Program-made: the position numbers and the translations under genes
Shown: positions 3,729 to 21,099 of the stretch, piece after piece
Layout of the letters: every line of letters begins with the position of its first letter
Position numbering within the stretch: the stretch's first letter is position 1
IMG/VR virus record: IMGVR_UViG_3300049223_000071
Span: 1-21,099 of that record
Source: a virus
Length of the DNA stretch: 21,099 nucleotides
Reading direction: 5' to 3' (one strand)
The notes under the pieces: generated by a model
Database searches by the model: none
Told to the model about the DNA's origin: nothing
What the model saw: the letters and a program-made list of their open reading frames with translations, nothing else

Positions 3729-4916
3729 GTGGCAATATACCGTGGGACTGGTGGCTCTGTTGAAGTTAACAACGATGCTACGGTCAATGAAATTGCAAAC
3801 TATGCTGCGTCTGCCAGTGCATCTGCTACTGAAGCTGCAACCTCTGCTACTGAAGCTGAAACATCTGCTACTAATGCTGCGTCATCTGAAACTACTGTAG
3901 CCGCTAGTGCTACTGCAGCAGCTACATCAGCAACTGAATCTGCTACATCTGCTACAGCATCTGCCTCAAGTGCAACAACTGCTGGAACATATGCAACGAG
4001 TGCTACGACTTCTGCTACTAATGCTGCTACGTCAGCTAGTGAAGCAAGTGCTAGTGCCTCAGCAGCAAGTACATCAGCTACCAATGCATCTACGTCTGCT
4101 ACGTCTGCTAATACATCAGCAACAAATGCAGCTAACAGTGCATCAGCGAGTGCAGCGTCAGCTACAGCATCTGCTACTAGTGCAACACAAGCAGCTAGTT
4201 CAGCTACAGCAGCTAACACATCGGCAGTAGCGGCATCGGCATCAGAGACAGCAGCAGCAGCTAGTGAATCAGCAGCAGCAACATCAGAAAGTAATGCATC
4301 GTCTAGTGCTACTAATGCAGCTACATCAGCTACAGCGTCTGCTAATAGTGCTACAGCATCTGCTTCATCAGCTAGTGATGCTAGTACATCAGCAACTAAC
4401 GCAAGCAACAGTGCTACAGCAGCAAGTACGTCAGCCACTAATGCTGCATCGTCAGCTACTGCAGCAGCTACATCAGCTACTAATGCAAGTAATAGTGCTA
4501 CAGCATCAGCCTCTAGTGCTACAGCATCTGCATCTTCTGCTACTCAAGCAGAGACAGCACAGACTGCAGCAGAAACTGCTCAGACAGCAGCAGAGACAGC
4601 TCAAGCAGCCGCTGAAGCAGCACAAGAAGCTATTGATGGGTCATACCTTGGTGCACAGTCATCAGACCCTTCAGTAGATTTGAATGGCGCAGCAGTTACT
4701 GCAGGTGATTGGTACTTCAATACTACGAATAATGTAACACGTGTTTATAGCGGAAGTGCTTGGAACACTGTAGCATCAGTGACGTTGTCTAACTGGACAA
4801 TCACAGAAACATCAGGTGTCCTGTACTTTGCTACAAGTGGCGTAAACAAAATGAAGCTAGATGCAGACGGTAACTTGACAGTGGTCGGTGACGTTGTAGC
4901 TGGCGGTACAATTTAA
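3729..4916 (+). CDS. Tail fibre protein with 39 tandem heptads
   Basis: A 395-aa protein with a GTG start supported by AAAGAGGG upstream. Residues 1-30 form a short head (MAIYRGTGGSVEVNNDATVN) of the kind I recall in podovirus fibres. Residues 31-303 are 39 consecutive seven-residue units of the form TSATxAx with no break in phase, almost only Ala, Ser and Thr, matching the trimeric coiled-coil or stalk repeats of long phage fibres. The last four units change to TAQTAAE/AAQEAID. Residues 304-395 hold a globular end: GAQSSDP, GDWYFNTTNN, then WTITETSGVLYFATSG. That end is related to the 82-aa protein at 12305. It is followed closely by a second fibre gene, and the two probably act together in host binding. 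No enzymatic motif is seen. Confidence 0.85.
   Translation: MAIYRGTGGSVEVNNDATVNEIANYAASASASATEAATSATEAETSATNAASSETTVAASATAAATSATESATSATASASSATTAGTYATSATTSATNAATSASEASASASAASTSATNASTSATSANTSATNAANSASASAASATASATSATQAASSATAANTSAVAASASETAAAASESAAATSESNASSSATNAATSATASANSATASASSASDASTSATNASNSATAASTSATNAASSATAAATSATNASNSATASASSATASASSATQAETAQTAAETAQTAAETAQAAAEAAQEAIDGSYLGAQSSDPSVDLNGAAVTAGDWYFNTTNNVTRVYSGSAWNTVASVTLSNWTITETSGVLYFATSGVNKMKLDADGNLTVVGDVVAGGTI
3819..4637 (+). repeat. 39 tandem 21-bp codon repeats (Ala/Ser/Thr heptads)
   Basis: Within the fibre gene, 819 bp encode exactly 39 heptads. At DNA level the copies are degenerate (GCTACATCAGCTACTAATGC-like variants), so the protein period is kept while the bases differ. 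The low complexity also creates long open frames in other phases and on the other strand, which are artefacts. Confidence 0.9.
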
Positions 4917-6487: not shown

Positions 6488-6994
6488 ATGAAAACCTGCA
6501 CTAAATGTAAAACAAAGAAGTCACTAGATCAGTTCTATAAACGTGCTGATCGTGACACTTATCATTCATGGTGTAAGCAGTGTAAACATGAGTCTGGTAA
6601 GTCTTGGCATAGTCGTAACAAAGAACGTCATGCTGAACTTACTAGACGATGGTATGAAGAGAACAAGGAACAACACTTAGCTAACAGTAAGGAATGGTAC
6701 GAGGCTAATAAATCACGCAAACTAGAGACTACTACAGCTAGGGAGAAGCGTTGTGTTCTTGCCACACCAACATGGGCAGATCGTGAACTGATTAAAGAGC
6801 TGTACGAACTGGCTAGGAAGCTAACAGAGCAGACAGGTATACAACATGAAGTGGATCATGTTATACCGCTACAAGGCAAAGAGGTTAGCGGCTTACACGT
6901 TCCAGATAACCTTCAAGTCATAACGGCTGAAGAAAACAGACGCAAGTCTAACAAGTATGACGTTACTGGAAGTAGCGTTGGACAACTTAACTAG
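6488..6994 (+). CDS. HNH endonuclease with N-terminal zinc ribbon, homing type
   Basis: A 168-aa protein. Residues 4-32 carry two CxxC pairs (C4/C7 and C29/C32), a zinc ribbon. Residues 40-80 are highly charged helices with a repeated WYExNK pattern (55-60 and 70-75). The HNH core is near 118-156: HEVDHVIPL (D123, H124), then GLHVPDNLQVI with N141, then N150 and N155, the usual metal-binding and catalytic positions. Such proteins nick or cut DNA and often spread as homing genes. It sits as a single unit between fibre and structural genes with only a weak AAGG ribosome site, fitting a mobile insertion. No intron is visible next to it, so it looks free-standing. Confidence 0.88.
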   Translation: MKTCTKCKTKKSLDQFYKRADRDTYHSWCKQCKHESGKSWHSRNKERHAELTRRWYEENKEQHLANSKEWYEANKSRKLETTTAREKRCVLATPTWADRELIKELYELARKLTEQTGIQHEVDHVIPLQGKEVSGLHVPDNLQVITAEENRRKSNKYDVTGSSVGQLN

Positions 6995-18163: not shown

Positions 18164-18460
18164 ATGGCTACAGCAAAAAAGAAGGATAGTAGATTAGAGA
18201 GGGCAGGCGTTGATGGCTACAACAAACCGAAGAGGACACCTAACCACCCAACCAAGTCACACGTTGTGGTGGCGAAGGAAGGTGATCAGGTCAAGACCAT
18301 CCGCTTTGGAGAGCAAGGAGCCAAGACAGCCGGTAAACCCAAGAAAGGTGAGTCAGAAGCGATGAAGAAGAAGCGTGCCAGTTTTAAAGCTAGACACGCA
18401 AAGAACATCAAGAAAGGTAAGATGTCAGCAGCCTACTGGGCTAACAAGGAGAAATGGTAA
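18164..18460 (+). CDS. Conserved basic protein, 98 aa
   Basis: A very basic product (Lys/Arg throughout): starts MATAKKKDSRLERAGV, has YNKPKRTPNHPTKSH, then VKTIRFGEQGAKTAGKP and ends FKARHAKNIKKGKMSAAYW. I recognise this sequence pattern as a small protein found in many marine podoviruses, cyanophages and SAR11 phages next to the large virion gene (a DUF family, possibly DUF6321, from memory). Composition suggests DNA binding or packing in the virion. GGAGG lies seven bases before ATG, overlapping the end of the 1153-aa gene. Its stop overlaps the 43-aa gene (TAATG). Confidence 0.8.
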   Translation: MATAKKKDSRLERAGVDGYNKPKRTPNHPTKSHVVVAKEGDQVKTIRFGEQGAKTAGKPKKGESEAMKKKRASFKARHAKNIKKGKMSAAYWANKEKW

Positions 18461-18607: not shown

Positions 18608-18787
18608 CTAGTCCATCTCATCAGGAGGTGTAAGAGATACGGTGATGTTTCCTTTGGCTACGTCATAGCAAGCGTCACCGTATCCCTGTTCATATCCCAA
18701 CGCTTCTGCTTTATTCCACGTCAAATATATCCCCGTCCCGAACACAGCCCCAATAATAAAGGCTGCTTCATACGTTAACTGAATCAA
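18608..18787 (-). CDS. Small one-helix membrane protein, 59 aa, TTG start
   Basis: Last gene of the minus-strand train. The TTG start is supported by AAGGAGG seven bases upstream and by a four-base overlap (TTGA) with the preceding stop. Residues about 6-24 (YEAAFIIGAVFGTGIYLTW) form one membrane helix with small residues (GxxxG-like); the rest is a soluble tail rich in acidic and Tyr residues (KAEALGYEQGYGDACYDVA, then TVSLTPPDEMD). The plan fits a small membrane accessory protein. Its strong ribosome site with a weak start codon suggests tuned expression. No family recognised. Confidence 0.68.
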   Translation of the reverse strand: MIQLTYEAAFIIGAVFGTGIYLTWNKAEALGYEQGYGDACYDVAKGNITVSLTPPDEMD

Positions 18788-19002
18788 TGTAAATCCTCCT
18801 TCTTAGCAGGACGTGATGTAATCATGCTGTCTGTTATCAGGTAGGTTGCATGTTGTAGGAACATGACGTATTCGTTCATCAGTGCTAGTAGATCAGCAGG
18901 GTCTTGACATATTTCTAGTTCTTCTAGGAATGTATCGCTACTGTCCTTCATGCTACCGTACAGTTCTGTTAGTACGATGTCAAAGCTAGTGTAATCACTC
19001 AT
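18784..19002 (-). CDS. Small acidic protein, 72 aa, unknown
   Basis: Two adjacent ATGs (19005 and 19002); the second is chosen because AGGA is seven bases before it, giving a one-base overlap with the previous stop (TGATG). The other start would give a four-base ATGA overlap, also plausible. The product (MSDYTSFDIVLTELYGSMKD, then ELEICQDPADLLALMNEY) is helical and acidic with a short basic end RPAKKEDLH. No motif or membrane segment; no family recognised. Its stop overlaps the TTG of the next gene. Confidence 0.65.
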   Translation of the reverse strand: MSDYTSFDIVLTELYGSMKDSSDTFLEELEICQDPADLLALMNEYVMFLQHATYLITDSMITSRPAKKEDLH

Positions 19003-19184
19003 CATTTATTCCTGTGTTTCTTGCACCAATAGCCATAACCCCACTTGTTACTAGGGTAGGTACGTAGCCTACCAGTGAATGGCTTACCTCGTTTATGATT
19101 CAGATGTGTAACAACGTGCATTATCTGATACTTCTTAAAAGCACCTTTACCCTTCAAGCTCCAATAGAACTTAGACATGGTCAT
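19002..19184 (-). CDS. Small basic protein, 60 aa, unknown
   Basis: Start at the ATG at 19184, with GGAG seven bases upstream; a GTG at 19187 and an ATG at 19178 are weaker choices. The product is strongly basic and aromatic (SKFYWSLKGKGAFKKYQIMH, then HKRGKPFTGRLRTYPSNKWG, ending YWCKKHRNK), suggesting nucleic acid contact. It overlaps the upstream gene by 14 bases in another frame. I do not recognise it. Its composition contrasts with the acidic proteins on both sides. Confidence 0.62.
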   Translation of the reverse strand: MTMSKFYWSLKGKGAFKKYQIMHVVTHLNHKRGKPFTGRLRTYPSNKWGYGYWCKKHRNK

Positions 19185-19356
19185 CACGCTTCTCCATGTA
19201 AGCCTTTAGTATCGCTATAGGGTCATCGCCTGTCACACCTGCAACGATAGACCACAAGATACCTTGCTGTGTCATCAGGATACGTTCTTCTTCTGTCATG
19301 TCGAAGGTGTACGTAGCACTGCCGTCTTCGTGTTCTATTTCGTCAATGATCTTCAT
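19171..19356 (-). CDS. Small conserved phage protein, 61 aa, DGSATYTFDMTEEE type
   Basis: The start chosen is the ATG at 19356, which forms an ATGA overlap with the preceding stop and has GGGAG upstream; a TTG at 19371 is possible but unneeded. MKIIDEIEHEDGSATYTFDM followed by TEEERILMTQQGILWSIVAG resembles a common small phage protein with one beta hairpin (DGSAxxTxDxTEEE) and a helix, which I recall as widespread and of unknown function. It overlaps the next gene by 14 bases. Confidence 0.68.
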   Translation of the reverse strand: MKIIDEIEHEDGSATYTFDMTEEERILMTQQGILWSIVAGVTGDDPIAILKAYMEKRDDHV

Positions 19357-19541
19357 CGTCCTCTCCCACAATCCATCTTGTGTTGACCTTCAGTACACCT
19401 GCACTCAGGACAGATGTCGTACAGTTTGTACATACGGTCTATGCCTTCTTGTATTCCTGCTTCCCATGCGTAATGTACATCAGCATATTCATTACTAGAC
19501 ATGGTTTCTATACGGTCTCCAATGAATTCTTCAAATGTCAT
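19353..19541 (-). CDS. Small protein with C-terminal cysteine cluster, 62 aa
   Basis: Starts at an ATG overlapping the stop of the preceding gene (ATGA). The N-terminal half is an acidic helix (MTFEEFIGDRIETMSSNEYA); the end has CPECRCTEGQHKMDC, with four cysteines and a histidine that could bind zinc, followed by a basic GRGR. It may be a small regulator or RNA/DNA-contacting protein, but only the metal-binding pattern is seen. Confidence 0.66.
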   Translation of the reverse strand: MTFEEFIGDRIETMSSNEYADVHYAWEAGIQEGIDRMYKLYDICPECRCTEGQHKMDCGRGR

Positions 19542-19759
19542 ACTCGTACTCCAAAGAACTCTAGCGTTGTCTTGATAGCCTCTAGGTATCTCAAGTTATT
19601 CTCAATATCCTCAGCTTCATATGGCTTTATGTTCTCTTTGTCTGATAGTCTTTTAATATCTTCTTGCAAGAACCTGTAGTGCCATTCAAGCGTGTGGCGT
19701 GTAATCTCTTCACCTGCTTCAGTAGAGTCTAGTATCTCTAGTAGTGTTAGTTTATTCAT
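19538..19759 (-). CDS. Small helical protein, 73 aa, first gene of the six-gene train
   Basis: The start chosen is the ATG at 19759, which has AAGGAG seven bases upstream; the frame stays open further (a TTG at 19825), but that lacks a ribosome site. The product is charged and helical (MNKLTLLEILDSTEAGEEIT, then WHYRFLQEDIKRLSDKENIK, NNLRYLEAIKTTLEFFG) and would form a helical hairpin or coiled coil. It follows the 342-nt gene-free region, so that region likely holds its control signals. No family recognised. Confidence 0.66.
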   Translation of the reverse strand: MNKLTLLEILDSTEAGEEITRHTLEWHYRFLQEDIKRLSDKENIKPYEAEDIENNLRYLEAIKTTLEFFGVRV

Positions 19760-19874
19760 CACTCTTCTCCTTAATAGGTGTTGGCACTCGGTTAGGTAGT
19801 CCCGACCCTTATCCAACGTTATCAACCTACGTGCACATAGGAATTACAAAGTGGTTCTTCTCAGGATAGGCTTG

Positions 19875-19901
19875 GGAGGTACTGATGATGGAGTGACCTC
19901 C
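19875..19901. repeat. Inverted repeat GGAGGT...ACCTCC
   Basis: Six-bp outer arms (19875-19880 and 19896-19901), with a further three pairs (ACT/AGT) inside past a single unpaired base. No T-run follows on either strand. In the minus-strand transcript it lies about 115 bases upstream of the 73-aa gene and contains an anti-ribosome-site-like CCTCC, so it may be an RNA control stem in the leader. Confidence 0.45.
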
Positions 19902-19998
19902 ACGATTTGAGCATCACCGTGAATTCTTGAGGGTTTTACTATTTAACGACAGATAACCCACAACTATGTCGACATTTGTCTCTCATATTTTGCTAAAT

Positions 19999-20027
19999 GT
20001 GATAAACAAAGTGTTCTATTGTGACAA
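19999..20027 (-). promoter_or_regulatory. Weak candidate promoter for the six-gene train
   Basis: Read on the minus strand: TTGTCA (20027-20022), a 17-base spacer, TATCAC (20004-19999). The -35 is close to consensus; the -10 matches four of six and has no TG extension. The -35 overlaps an ATTGTG-type repeat, so protein binding there would compete with polymerase. Confidence 0.35.
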
Positions 20028-20081
20028 CTATGCTTACCTTATTGTGCCATGTTCTACTCACTATGCGCCATATTGTGCCAT
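20018..20081. repeat. Cluster of ATTGTG repeats, possible binding-site array
   Basis: ATTGTGACAA (20018), ATTGTGCCAT (20041), TATGCGCCAT (20062) and ATTGTGCCAT (20072); another ATTGTGCAT lies at 20174 inside the 39-aa gene. The starts at 20041, 20062 and 20072 are 21 and 10 bases apart, on the same face of the helix. This looks like an array for a DNA-binding protein (iterons or operator sites). Confidence 0.5.
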
Positions 20082-20101
20082 AATGAGCAGATATGGTGTC
20101 A

Positions 20102-20221
20102 CTATAGGTCATCGTAATGTGTACGGACATACTGCTTGCACATAGAATATGAACCAGTGAAGACAGCTAACCCATTGTGCATAACCTTATAGGTGAAGCC
20201 GTCTACTCTAGTTATAAACAT
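20102..20221 (-). CDS. Tiny protein, 39 aa, coupled to the HNH gene
   Basis: Starts at an ATG that overlaps the stop of the HNH-AP2 gene by one base (TAATG in the minus strand). The product MFITRVDGFTYKVMHNGLAV then FTGSYSMCKQYVRTHYDDL reads like a small beta-beta-alpha phage protein (…YKVMHNGLAVFTGSYS…), a pattern I have met in other small phage proteins without a known function. It has no good ribosome site of its own, so translation would depend on the HNH gene. Short length keeps confidence moderate. Confidence 0.55.
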   Translation of the reverse strand: MFITRVDGFTYKVMHNGLAVFTGSYSMCKQYVRTHYDDL

Positions 20222-20565
20222 TATATAACATGATACTTAGTTTTAGCACGTAGGTATTTTGCTCTAGCTTCTAGCATACAATCACTACGTCCTAAGTTAA
20301 TCATCTTACCATCAAGGTAAATGTAAGAACGCCATTTATTACGCTTAGCATCCCAGTTAAATCCCTTAACACCGGAACGATTGAAGTGGTTCTGCTGGCA
20401 AGTAACAAGACGTAAGTTCTCAATGCGGTTATCATCACGTATGCGATTAATATGATCTATCTGCATACCTTCTGGAATTTTACCGTGGTGTTGTTCCCAT
20501 ACAATACGATGGTCATGCACAGGCTTACCGTTAACCATTGACATGGTATATCCACTACTTTTCAT
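20221..20565 (-). CDS. HNH endonuclease with AP2 DNA-binding domain, homing type
   Basis: A 114-aa protein when started at the ATG at 20565, which forms an ATGA overlap with the preceding stop and has GGAG ten bases upstream; a GTG at 20574 would put GGAG too close. Residues 17-60 hold the HNH_3-type core: HDHRIVWEQHHG, then MQIDHINRIRDDNRIENLRL (D37, H38, N50) and the final N59/H60. Residues 65-112 (GVKGFNWDAKRNKWRSYIYL, LGRSDCMLEARAKYL) match the AP2 DNA-binding fold often fused to such nucleases. It probably nicks a specific site and spreads as a selfish gene. It sits inside the small-gene train with tight overlaps on both sides, so it is well assimilated into the operon. Confidence 0.9.
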   Translation of the reverse strand: MKSSGYTMSMVNGKPVHDHRIVWEQHHGKIPEGMQIDHINRIRDDNRIENLRLVTCQQNHFNRSGVKGFNWDAKRNKWRSYIYLDGKMINLGRSDCMLEARAKYLRAKTKYHVI

Positions 20566-20732
20566 AGGCGACACGCTCCGCCAGCACAGCCATCGTCTTC
20601 ATCGAAGCTAACCTCTTCTAGCTCCATGATCTCTAGCTCGTTAGCAATAGCGTCCATCAGCTCAGGCTCACCGCCTTTCTCTTCCAATGCTTCAAAGATT
20701 ACAATCAAATCTTCTTTACTAAAGTTGATCAC
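20562..20732 (-). CDS. Small acidic protein, 56 aa
   Basis: GTG start with AGAGGG about nine bases upstream. The product INFSKEDLIVIFEALEEKG, then GEPELMDAIANELEIMELEE, is acidic and helical and ends in DDGCAGGACRL with two cysteines. It overlaps the zinc-finger gene by 14 bases and the HNH gene by four (ATGA). Its two short helices and acidic surface would suit a small inhibitor or adaptor protein, but nothing specific is recognised. Confidence 0.65.
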   Translation of the reverse strand: MINFSKEDLIVIFEALEEKGGEPELMDAIANELEIMELEEVSFDEDDGCAGGACRL

Positions 20733-20883
20733 CTGTCTTACCCTCTATTAATACTGACTTCTGTTTAGGTTTTAGTGTCCACTTATTATAATACTTACAA
20801 TCAGGACACATACGCTTGTCGATTGAGGACAGCAGGATCATCGACCCTACGTATCCACACTTCATGCAACGTGAGTTGTTCAC
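20719..20883 (-). CDS. Small zinc-ribbon protein, 54 aa
   Basis: GTG start in a GTGA overlap with the stop of the MazG-like gene. Two CxxC pairs (CMKC at 6-9 and CPDC at 26-29) make a classic zinc ribbon, followed by a basic stretch (YYNKWTLKPKQK) and a short tail. Zinc ribbons of this size in phages often contact nucleic acid or a host polymerase subunit; here only the metal site is visible. Confidence 0.7.
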   Translation of the reverse strand: MNNSRCMKCGYVGSMILLSSIDKRMCPDCKYYNKWTLKPKQKSVLIEGKTGDQL

Positions 20884-21099
20884 TCAGCATCCTTGACGAA
20901 CACACCATCAACCATCTTGCCACTGCGCTGAGCGATGACACCATATGCCTTGCATAGGCTTTCGTATGCTGACATACCCATCAACTCAGCGAGGATGATT
21001 AGGACAACCTGCATGTCACCGATGGCATCAGCAATCTCTTCTGCATTATCAGCAGCAATAGCGTCAATGAGTTCGTTATGTTCTTCAGCTAGTTTGTCT
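20880..21099 (-). CDS. MazG-like nucleotide pyrophosphohydrolase, start outside window
   Basis: The last 72 codons and stop are in the window; the gene begins to the right. It shows the all-alpha NTP pyrophosphohydrolase signature: EEHNELIDAIAADNAEEIAD then AIGDMQVVLIILAELMG, with paired acidic residues in two helices (E..E, then E..D and GD) that bind magnesium and the triphosphate. The tail SAYESLCKAYGVIAQRSGKM matches phage and cyanobacterial relatives. In phages these enzymes split NTPs or dNTPs (or ppGpp in some reports) to adjust the nucleotide pool. It heads the train of small minus-strand genes and is joined to the next by GTGA. Confidence 0.8.
   Translation of the reverse strand, partial: DKLAEEHNELIDAIAADNAEEIADAIGDMQVVLIILAELMGMSAYESLCKAYGVIAQRSGKMVDGVFVKDAE

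Follow-up and report, generated by a model that had tools for sequence, protein, structure and literature searches.

The large subunit of class I ribonucleotide reductase (RNR) ends in a disordered tail, and a double-cysteine motif in this tail re-reduces the active site of the enzyme (PMC9669993). Glutaredoxins or thioredoxins in turn reduce the cysteine pair, and a tail can serve another subunit (PMC5704485); tails of the CX4C type are an E. coli-type minority (PMC9669993; PMC5704485). In the split class II RNR NrdJa+b of Pseudomonas aeruginosa, the terminal-reduction module NrdJb has a gene separate from that of the catalytic subunit (PMC5704485), and yeast Sml1, a small RNR inhibitor, is proposed, in work cited in PMC5704485, to act on RNR regeneration via the tail region. 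Here we describe a 56-residue phage protein, g3, that ends in a copy of a class I RNR redox tail. It is encoded in a 21,099-base IMG/VR virus fragment (IMGVR_UViG_3300049223_000071, in full length called the window below), in a train of minus-strand genes at 18608-21099 that run in the order mazG, g2, g3, an HNH gene, and g5 to g11. All eleven frames of the original prediction were found, and its view that novelty within the window is best sought here is borne out by the tail of g3.

20562..20732, minus strand: g3, 56 amino acids, helical-hairpin head followed by a class I RNR-type redox tail (11-member alignment, AlphaFold2, PDB profile search)
20565..20597, minus strand: codons of the g3 tail, DDGCAGGACRL, with K instead of R in all 10 other aligned homologues

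The last residues of g3, DDGCAGGAC(K/R)L, match the C-terminus of class I RNR alpha (large) subunits. When a g3 profile was compared with all PDB sequences, the best match lay at the very end of an RNR alpha subunit (ending in QDDGCAGGACKI; 7mdi, E 0.23), which is weak when taken alone since it covers only 12 residues. We also scanned 2.9 million viral contigs in IMG/VR for frames ending in DDGCxxGACK[ILMFV] directly before the stop codon. The 74 contigs recovered consist of 56 with NrdA (38 open reading frames of at least 500 codons and 18 partial or shorter ones), 15 with g3 homologues and three with unrelated microproteins, and no other protein carries the motif. Conservation within g3 is highest in the tail: 12 of its 14 alignment columns are invariant, compared with 13 of the 43 columns of the head (n = 11 sequences). 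The ratio of nonsynonymous to synonymous variation (pN/pS) of g3 is 0.18.

As in NrdA, the tail is of the DDGCxxGACK[I/L] type, its two cysteines lie at the very end of the chain, and disorder is predicted: AlphaFold2 gives helices at residues 6-19 and 23-40 with high confidence, and DDGCAGGACRL at the exact C-terminus is modelled with low confidence. The prediction is a folded helical hairpin with a disordered tail, as would be expected of a flexible redox tail. In contrast to NrdA, with which it has only about 12-14 residues in common, g3 has a different head and is encoded by a gene for 56 amino acids; Pfam gave no match for it, and the catalytic barrel of NrdA (Ribonuc_red_lgC) was not found in it. 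A tblastn search of isolated phages with the g3 consensus gave no match, and no g3 was confirmed in 84,980 bacterial and archaeal genomes. The comparison of the g3 fold with the PDB gave weak helical-hairpin matches only (best match the antikinase Sda, E 1.1), which we do not read as kinship.

None of 13 contigs with g3, most of which are fragments, carries NrdA or NrdB (Pfam PF02867, PF00268), and none of seven relatives with NrdA and/or NrdB (G002, G004, G017, G018, G023, G025 and G026) carries g3, so that g3 and RNR genes do not co-occur in any of these 20, mostly fragmentary contigs. In the sister phage G002, NrdA starts right after MazG, in the slot that g2 and g3 occupy in the lineage of the window. 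Here the stretch between NrdA and g8 falls outside the contig, thus the absence of g3 in G002 is not a strict proof. Since the contigs are mostly fragments and related to each other, the evidence that g3 and RNR do not occur together is strong but not conclusive. The NrdA proteins of G017 and G018 end in a CxxC tail (...EECLSCHG) and not in CX4C, therefore the g3 tail does not derive from that enzyme; it may have been copied from a host-type NrdA. The encoding of a reducing module apart from the catalytic subunit is reminiscent of NrdJb; however, NrdJb contains a zinc-binding cysteine-rich domain of a class II enzyme, whereas the tail of g3 is of class I, and the g3 contigs showed no RNR gene that could be its partner.

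The genomic surroundings of g3 are those of DNA replication and of the synthesis of deoxyribonucleoside triphosphates (dNTPs). In IMG/VR relatives the genes run mazG-g2-g3-(g5)-(g8 and g7, either one first)-g9-g10-g11, followed by a convergent late operon that opens with a 98-amino-acid lysine-rich protein, and upstream of MazG they encode a primase-helicase, DNA polymerase A (PolA), a T7-like exonuclease and a metallophosphoesterase. The more distant phages L053 and L055 have a block g7-g8-g9-(g10-like) that is flanked by ThyX and NrdB and preceded by MazG, glutaredoxin and NrdA, an arrangement also partly visible in L039 and L054. In L006, NrdB directly follows g11, and Lentibacter phage ICBM2 (Cobavirinae) has a g8-like gene flanked by ThyX and an exonuclease; MazG and a cobalamin-dependent RNR come a little further on. 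Among 80 loci of the g8 family, 70 are found with ThyX, Nrd, polymerase, exonuclease, primase or metallophosphoesterase genes, and ThyX is not more than 200 nucleotides away in 20 of them. Judged by these conserved neighbours, the train is the distal (downstream) end of a replication and dNTP-synthesis operon, which meets the convergent late genes, and the best explanation for its members would be that they are small accessory proteins of this pathway. From this position, the late, virion-associated expression that was named as refuting the original prediction seems less likely.

From its sequence, its context and its predicted structure we infer that g3 acts through RNR or redoxins. In the reading that we prefer, with a probability of about 0.6, g3 would be a small helical carrier with a free-standing copy of the class I RNR redox tail, and it would act in trans, either on the RNR of the host or on its redoxin supply. 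Within RNR, the cysteine pair of the flexible C-terminal tail takes electrons from thioredoxin or glutaredoxin and re-reduces the active-site disulfide after each turnover. By presenting such a tail in trans, g3 might dock host redoxins, reach into the active site of the host's RNR, or do both, and thereby alter the production of dNTPs by the host in phages without an RNR of their own. The direction of this effect could be stimulation, with g3 as electron relay, or inhibition by competition with the tail of NrdA itself; we slightly prefer the relay because a replicating phage needs dNTPs.

A less probable reading, which nevertheless deserves to be taken seriously, is that g3 is a Sml1-like inhibitor or decoy, whose tail would block the entrance to the active site of the host NrdA or tie up thioredoxin or glutaredoxin, lowering dNTP synthesis or diverting reducing power. 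The match of the tail to RNR alpha and the NrdA-specific result of the motif scan fit an inhibitor too, and there is a precedent by citation (Zhang et al.); Sml1 is likewise a small RNR-directed protein, the likeness drawn here being one of description. However, both cysteines and the terminal K-I/L are exactly kept, which favours working redox chemistry over mere binding, and low dNTP levels would be of little gain to a lytic phage.

Several points weigh against a redox tail acting in trans, whichever its direction. The tail match is short and its E-value in the PDB search is by itself not significant. Because most g3 contigs are fragments, none of these phages can individually be said to lack RNR, and as the contigs are related, the lack of co-occurrence represents fewer than that many independent events. 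No class II RNR was found in the 10 g3 contigs searched with a phage class II RNR, but this search for NrdJ homologues had no positive control. Furthermore, the g3 tail is of the CX4C type, and the NrdA of the host may be of another type.

The original prediction had suggested that the train encodes host-takeover or anti-defence proteins. That it is an island of this kind, unrelated to nucleotide metabolism, and that the resemblance of the tail means something else, is unlikely in our view. The genes are small and mostly unnamed and the middle of the train is variable, with g6, g7 and g8 changing in order and presence, as such an island would have it; but the replication and dNTP neighbours are conserved, the tail motif is specific for NrdA, and defence-related families are missing apart from homing endonucleases. 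PADLOC reported only homing-endonuclease models, for the HNH gene, and no model of anti-phage defence or toxin-antitoxin systems, and NCBIfam gave no match on the train. Nothing points to defence, and a generic island is improbable, whereas a host-directed product is plausible with the RNR tail of g3, and a host-directed RNR device would count as a takeover function. That g3 is the decaying remnant of an RNR gene formerly located after MazG is very improbable: it does occupy the NrdA position of G002, but its head has no match to an RNR, the NrdA of G017 and G018 has the other tail type, and the tail is conserved in the 11 aligned homologues at the low pN/pS of the gene.

Free-standing tails are also present elsewhere. 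The 51-amino-acid family phrog_14561 (with the related PHROGs 24014 and 38753, all of 'unknown function') has an RNR-type tail on a different head and is found in 60 phage records, mainly of Erwinia and Salmonella jumbo phages. It matches g3 at the tail only, its N-terminal half IPGLDPDAGVEGGVD being unlike g3. In phiEaH2 the gene of this group lies between thymidylate synthase and MazG, CR5 has the same neighbourhood, and in pEa_SNUABM_1 the gene is located near dCMP deaminase; neither of two IMG/VR contigs (243 and 246 kb) with the jumbo-type tail protein encodes NrdA or NrdB. In addition, chromosomes of Neisseria and Moraxella contain open reading frames of 42-60 amino acids that end in an RNR tail (L207-L212). 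In L208 (N. polysaccharea) and L149, the neighbours of the tail frame on its two sides read as iscS and iscU. We propose to group the phage proteins as free-standing RNR-tail microproteins, which are short, have a non-RNR head and a C-terminal RNR tail, lie in a neighbourhood of dNTP genes and occur in phages without RNR, as judged for the g3 carriers from fragments. We see about an even chance that phages lacking RNR have made a stand-alone tail for the host RNR at least twice independently, once in marine podovirus-like phages (g3) and once in jumbo enterobacterial phages (phrog_14561/38753), and that bacteria such as Neisseria and Moraxella carry one as well; such a class of RNR-directed microproteins is undescribed in the literature that we found.

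The remaining features of the train are as follows.

20880..21098, minus strand: 3' part of mazG, with 72 codons visible and the gene cut by the window end
20719..20883, minus strand: g2, 54 amino acids, GTG start, two CxxC pairs (zinc-ribbon-like by sequence), cysteines conserved in L004, L007 and L008; pN/pS 0.20
20221..20565, minus strand: HNH_3 + AP2-like homing endonuclease gene, 114 amino acids (Pfam HNH_3; empty site in relatives)
20102..20221, minus strand: g5, 39 amino acids, with unusually low synonymous divergence
20054..20090, minus strand: conserved dyad CTGCTCATTATG-N13-CATAGTGAGTAG (37 nucleotides) in the 342-nucleotide gap, a candidate operator or RNA hairpin
19538..19759, minus strand: g6, 73 amino acids, variable cassette gene, homologues in L012 and L013; pN/pS 0.27
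19353..19541, minus strand: g7, 62 amino acids, with a variable N-terminus and a conserved CX2CX6HX3C zinc-knuckle-like end (from alignments)
19171..19356, minus strand: g8, 61 amino acids, 'EHEDGSAT' family, predicted beta-hairpin and two helices (AlphaFold2 predicted local distance difference test score 92)
19002..19184, minus strand: g9, 60 amino acids, basic, conserved YPSN(K/R)WGYGYW (13-member alignment); pN/pS 0.28
18784..19002, minus strand: g10, 72 amino acids (73 from an upstream ATG at 19005), acidic, the most conserved gene; pN/pS 0.09
18608..18787, minus strand: g11, 59 amino acids, TTG start, hydrophobic variable N-terminus and conserved C-terminus, homologues in L004-L011, last gene before the convergent late operon

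The near-continuous overlaps that had been described for the train hold for nine of its ten junctions, with spacings (negative for overlap) of -4 (mazG-g2), -14 (g2-g3), -4 (g3-HNH), -1 (HNH-g5), +342 (g5-g6), -4 (g6-g7), -4 (g7-g8), -14 (g8-g9), -4 (g9-g10) and -4 (g10-g11). They do not hold for the gap of 342 nucleotides after the fifth gene, which divides the train, and the two overlaps at the HNH gene stem from its insertion. Dense gene packing is common in phages and overlap is ordinary; since overlaps are also present at 6 of the 20 plus-strand gene junctions in this window, the dense packing is a matter of degree. With the exception of the HNH gene, homologues of all genes in IMG/VR show mostly synonymous change, with pooled pN/pS between 0.09 (g10) and 0.48 (g7), and relatives largely retain the gene order down to about 45% protein identity. 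By this pattern of variation, ten of the eleven train genes are real coding genes under purifying selection. No tRNA was found in the region, and a tblastn search of isolated phages with the joined small proteins gave no match.

The HNH gene (PF13392, HNH_3, E 2e-21; PADLOC homing-endonuclease model, 2e-8) is, judged by the empty site in relatives, a recent insertion between g3 and g5 and encodes a putative free-standing homing endonuclease. An insertion-free allele with intact flanks is present in L004, L007, L008 and L009, in which the g3 stop codon leads straight into the g5 start. In the window, the HNH ATG overlaps the g3 stop and the HNH stop overlaps the g5 ATG, both as by-products of the insertion, and the last codons of g3 read ...ACRL compared with ...ACKL in the relatives. 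In T4, the start of mobE overlaps the nrdA stop codon (PMC2988022). Here, as with the split NrdA of Aeromonas phage Aeh1 and T4 mobE, an HNH homing endonuclease gene lies at the coding end of an RNR tail; however, it adjoins a 56-amino-acid tail protein instead of NrdA, and the likeness to MobE noted here is one of position. L037 has a different HNH gene between MazG and g2 (L037:2586-2900), and the train junctions may be repeated homing sites. A second HNH-like gene was seen by eye among the tail genes of the window (6488-6994, plus strand).

At the upstream end of the train, the visible part of mazG carries a MazG/PRA-PH domain (Pfam PRA-PH 2e-5, MazG 8e-5; 25.2 and 23.3 bits against curated cut-offs of 21.3 and 22; PHROG MazG-like 1e-19), and the homologue in L007 is a full open reading frame of 102 amino acids; as mazG is incomplete here, the upper limit of 114 residues given in the original prediction covers the other ten genes. 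For g2 no significant family match was found. The pooled synonymous divergence of g5 is 0.17, compared with 0.34-0.72 in the other ten genes, thus the DNA itself may be constrained. The dyad next to it is present in L004, L007, L008 and L009 and, by fold, in L037, and L014 has a related hairpin; g5 and the dyad together (20054-20221, minus strand) look like a constrained DNA or RNA element. A scan of the region with Rfam, aimed at a possible intron or riboswitch within the gap, gave no match. A multi-copy phage promoter as explanation for the gap repeats was rejected, since each of the phage contigs examined has the 21-mer element at a single locus (with up to five mismatches).

In L013 the g6 homologue adjoins a g7 homologue. 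The g7-type CX2CX6HX3C end is also found fused to the C-terminus of a ThyX protein (L039:502-1209, ...ICPECQVAGGQHKLDCGRGR); related ThyX proteins stop before it. The relatives of g7 (window, L007, L009, L022, L040 and L055) look mosaic, as if the blocks MTFEEW..., AGIQEGI... and CX2CX6HX3C had been recombined among small genes. With 163 IMG/VR relatives, g8 belongs to a widespread phage family that often adjoins ThyX; its 'invariant EHEDGSAT' is so partly by construction since the scan pattern contained EHEDGSA. It has no Pfam or PHROG family, its fold matched nothing in the PDB at E ≤ 0.001, and its PDB sequence profile gave only chance-level matches to cysteine synthases. The identity of g10 to five aligned relatives is 92-93%.

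Outside the train, the region of the 98-amino-acid lysine-rich protein (18164-18460) has 79% DNA identity to Roseobacter phage CRP-603, which is the best hint toward a host among the Rhodobacteraceae. A repetitive Ala/Ser/Thr-rich protein of 395 amino acids after the coat gene (3729-4916) is probably fibre-related, as judged by eye.

RNR controls how much DNA precursor is available, and the ways in which phages without it raise or redirect the host enzyme are largely open. If the proposed role of g3 is true, a 56-residue protein with a copy of the RNR tail would give simple, testable access to the dNTP synthesis of the host, and trans-acting RNR tails would become a question that can be answered with purified components. 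It would also provide a first functional hypothesis for several PHROGs of 'unknown function' in isolated phages. In addition, the EHEDGSAT family of g8, widespread and unnamed, is placed beside thymidylate synthase and other dNTP and replication genes.

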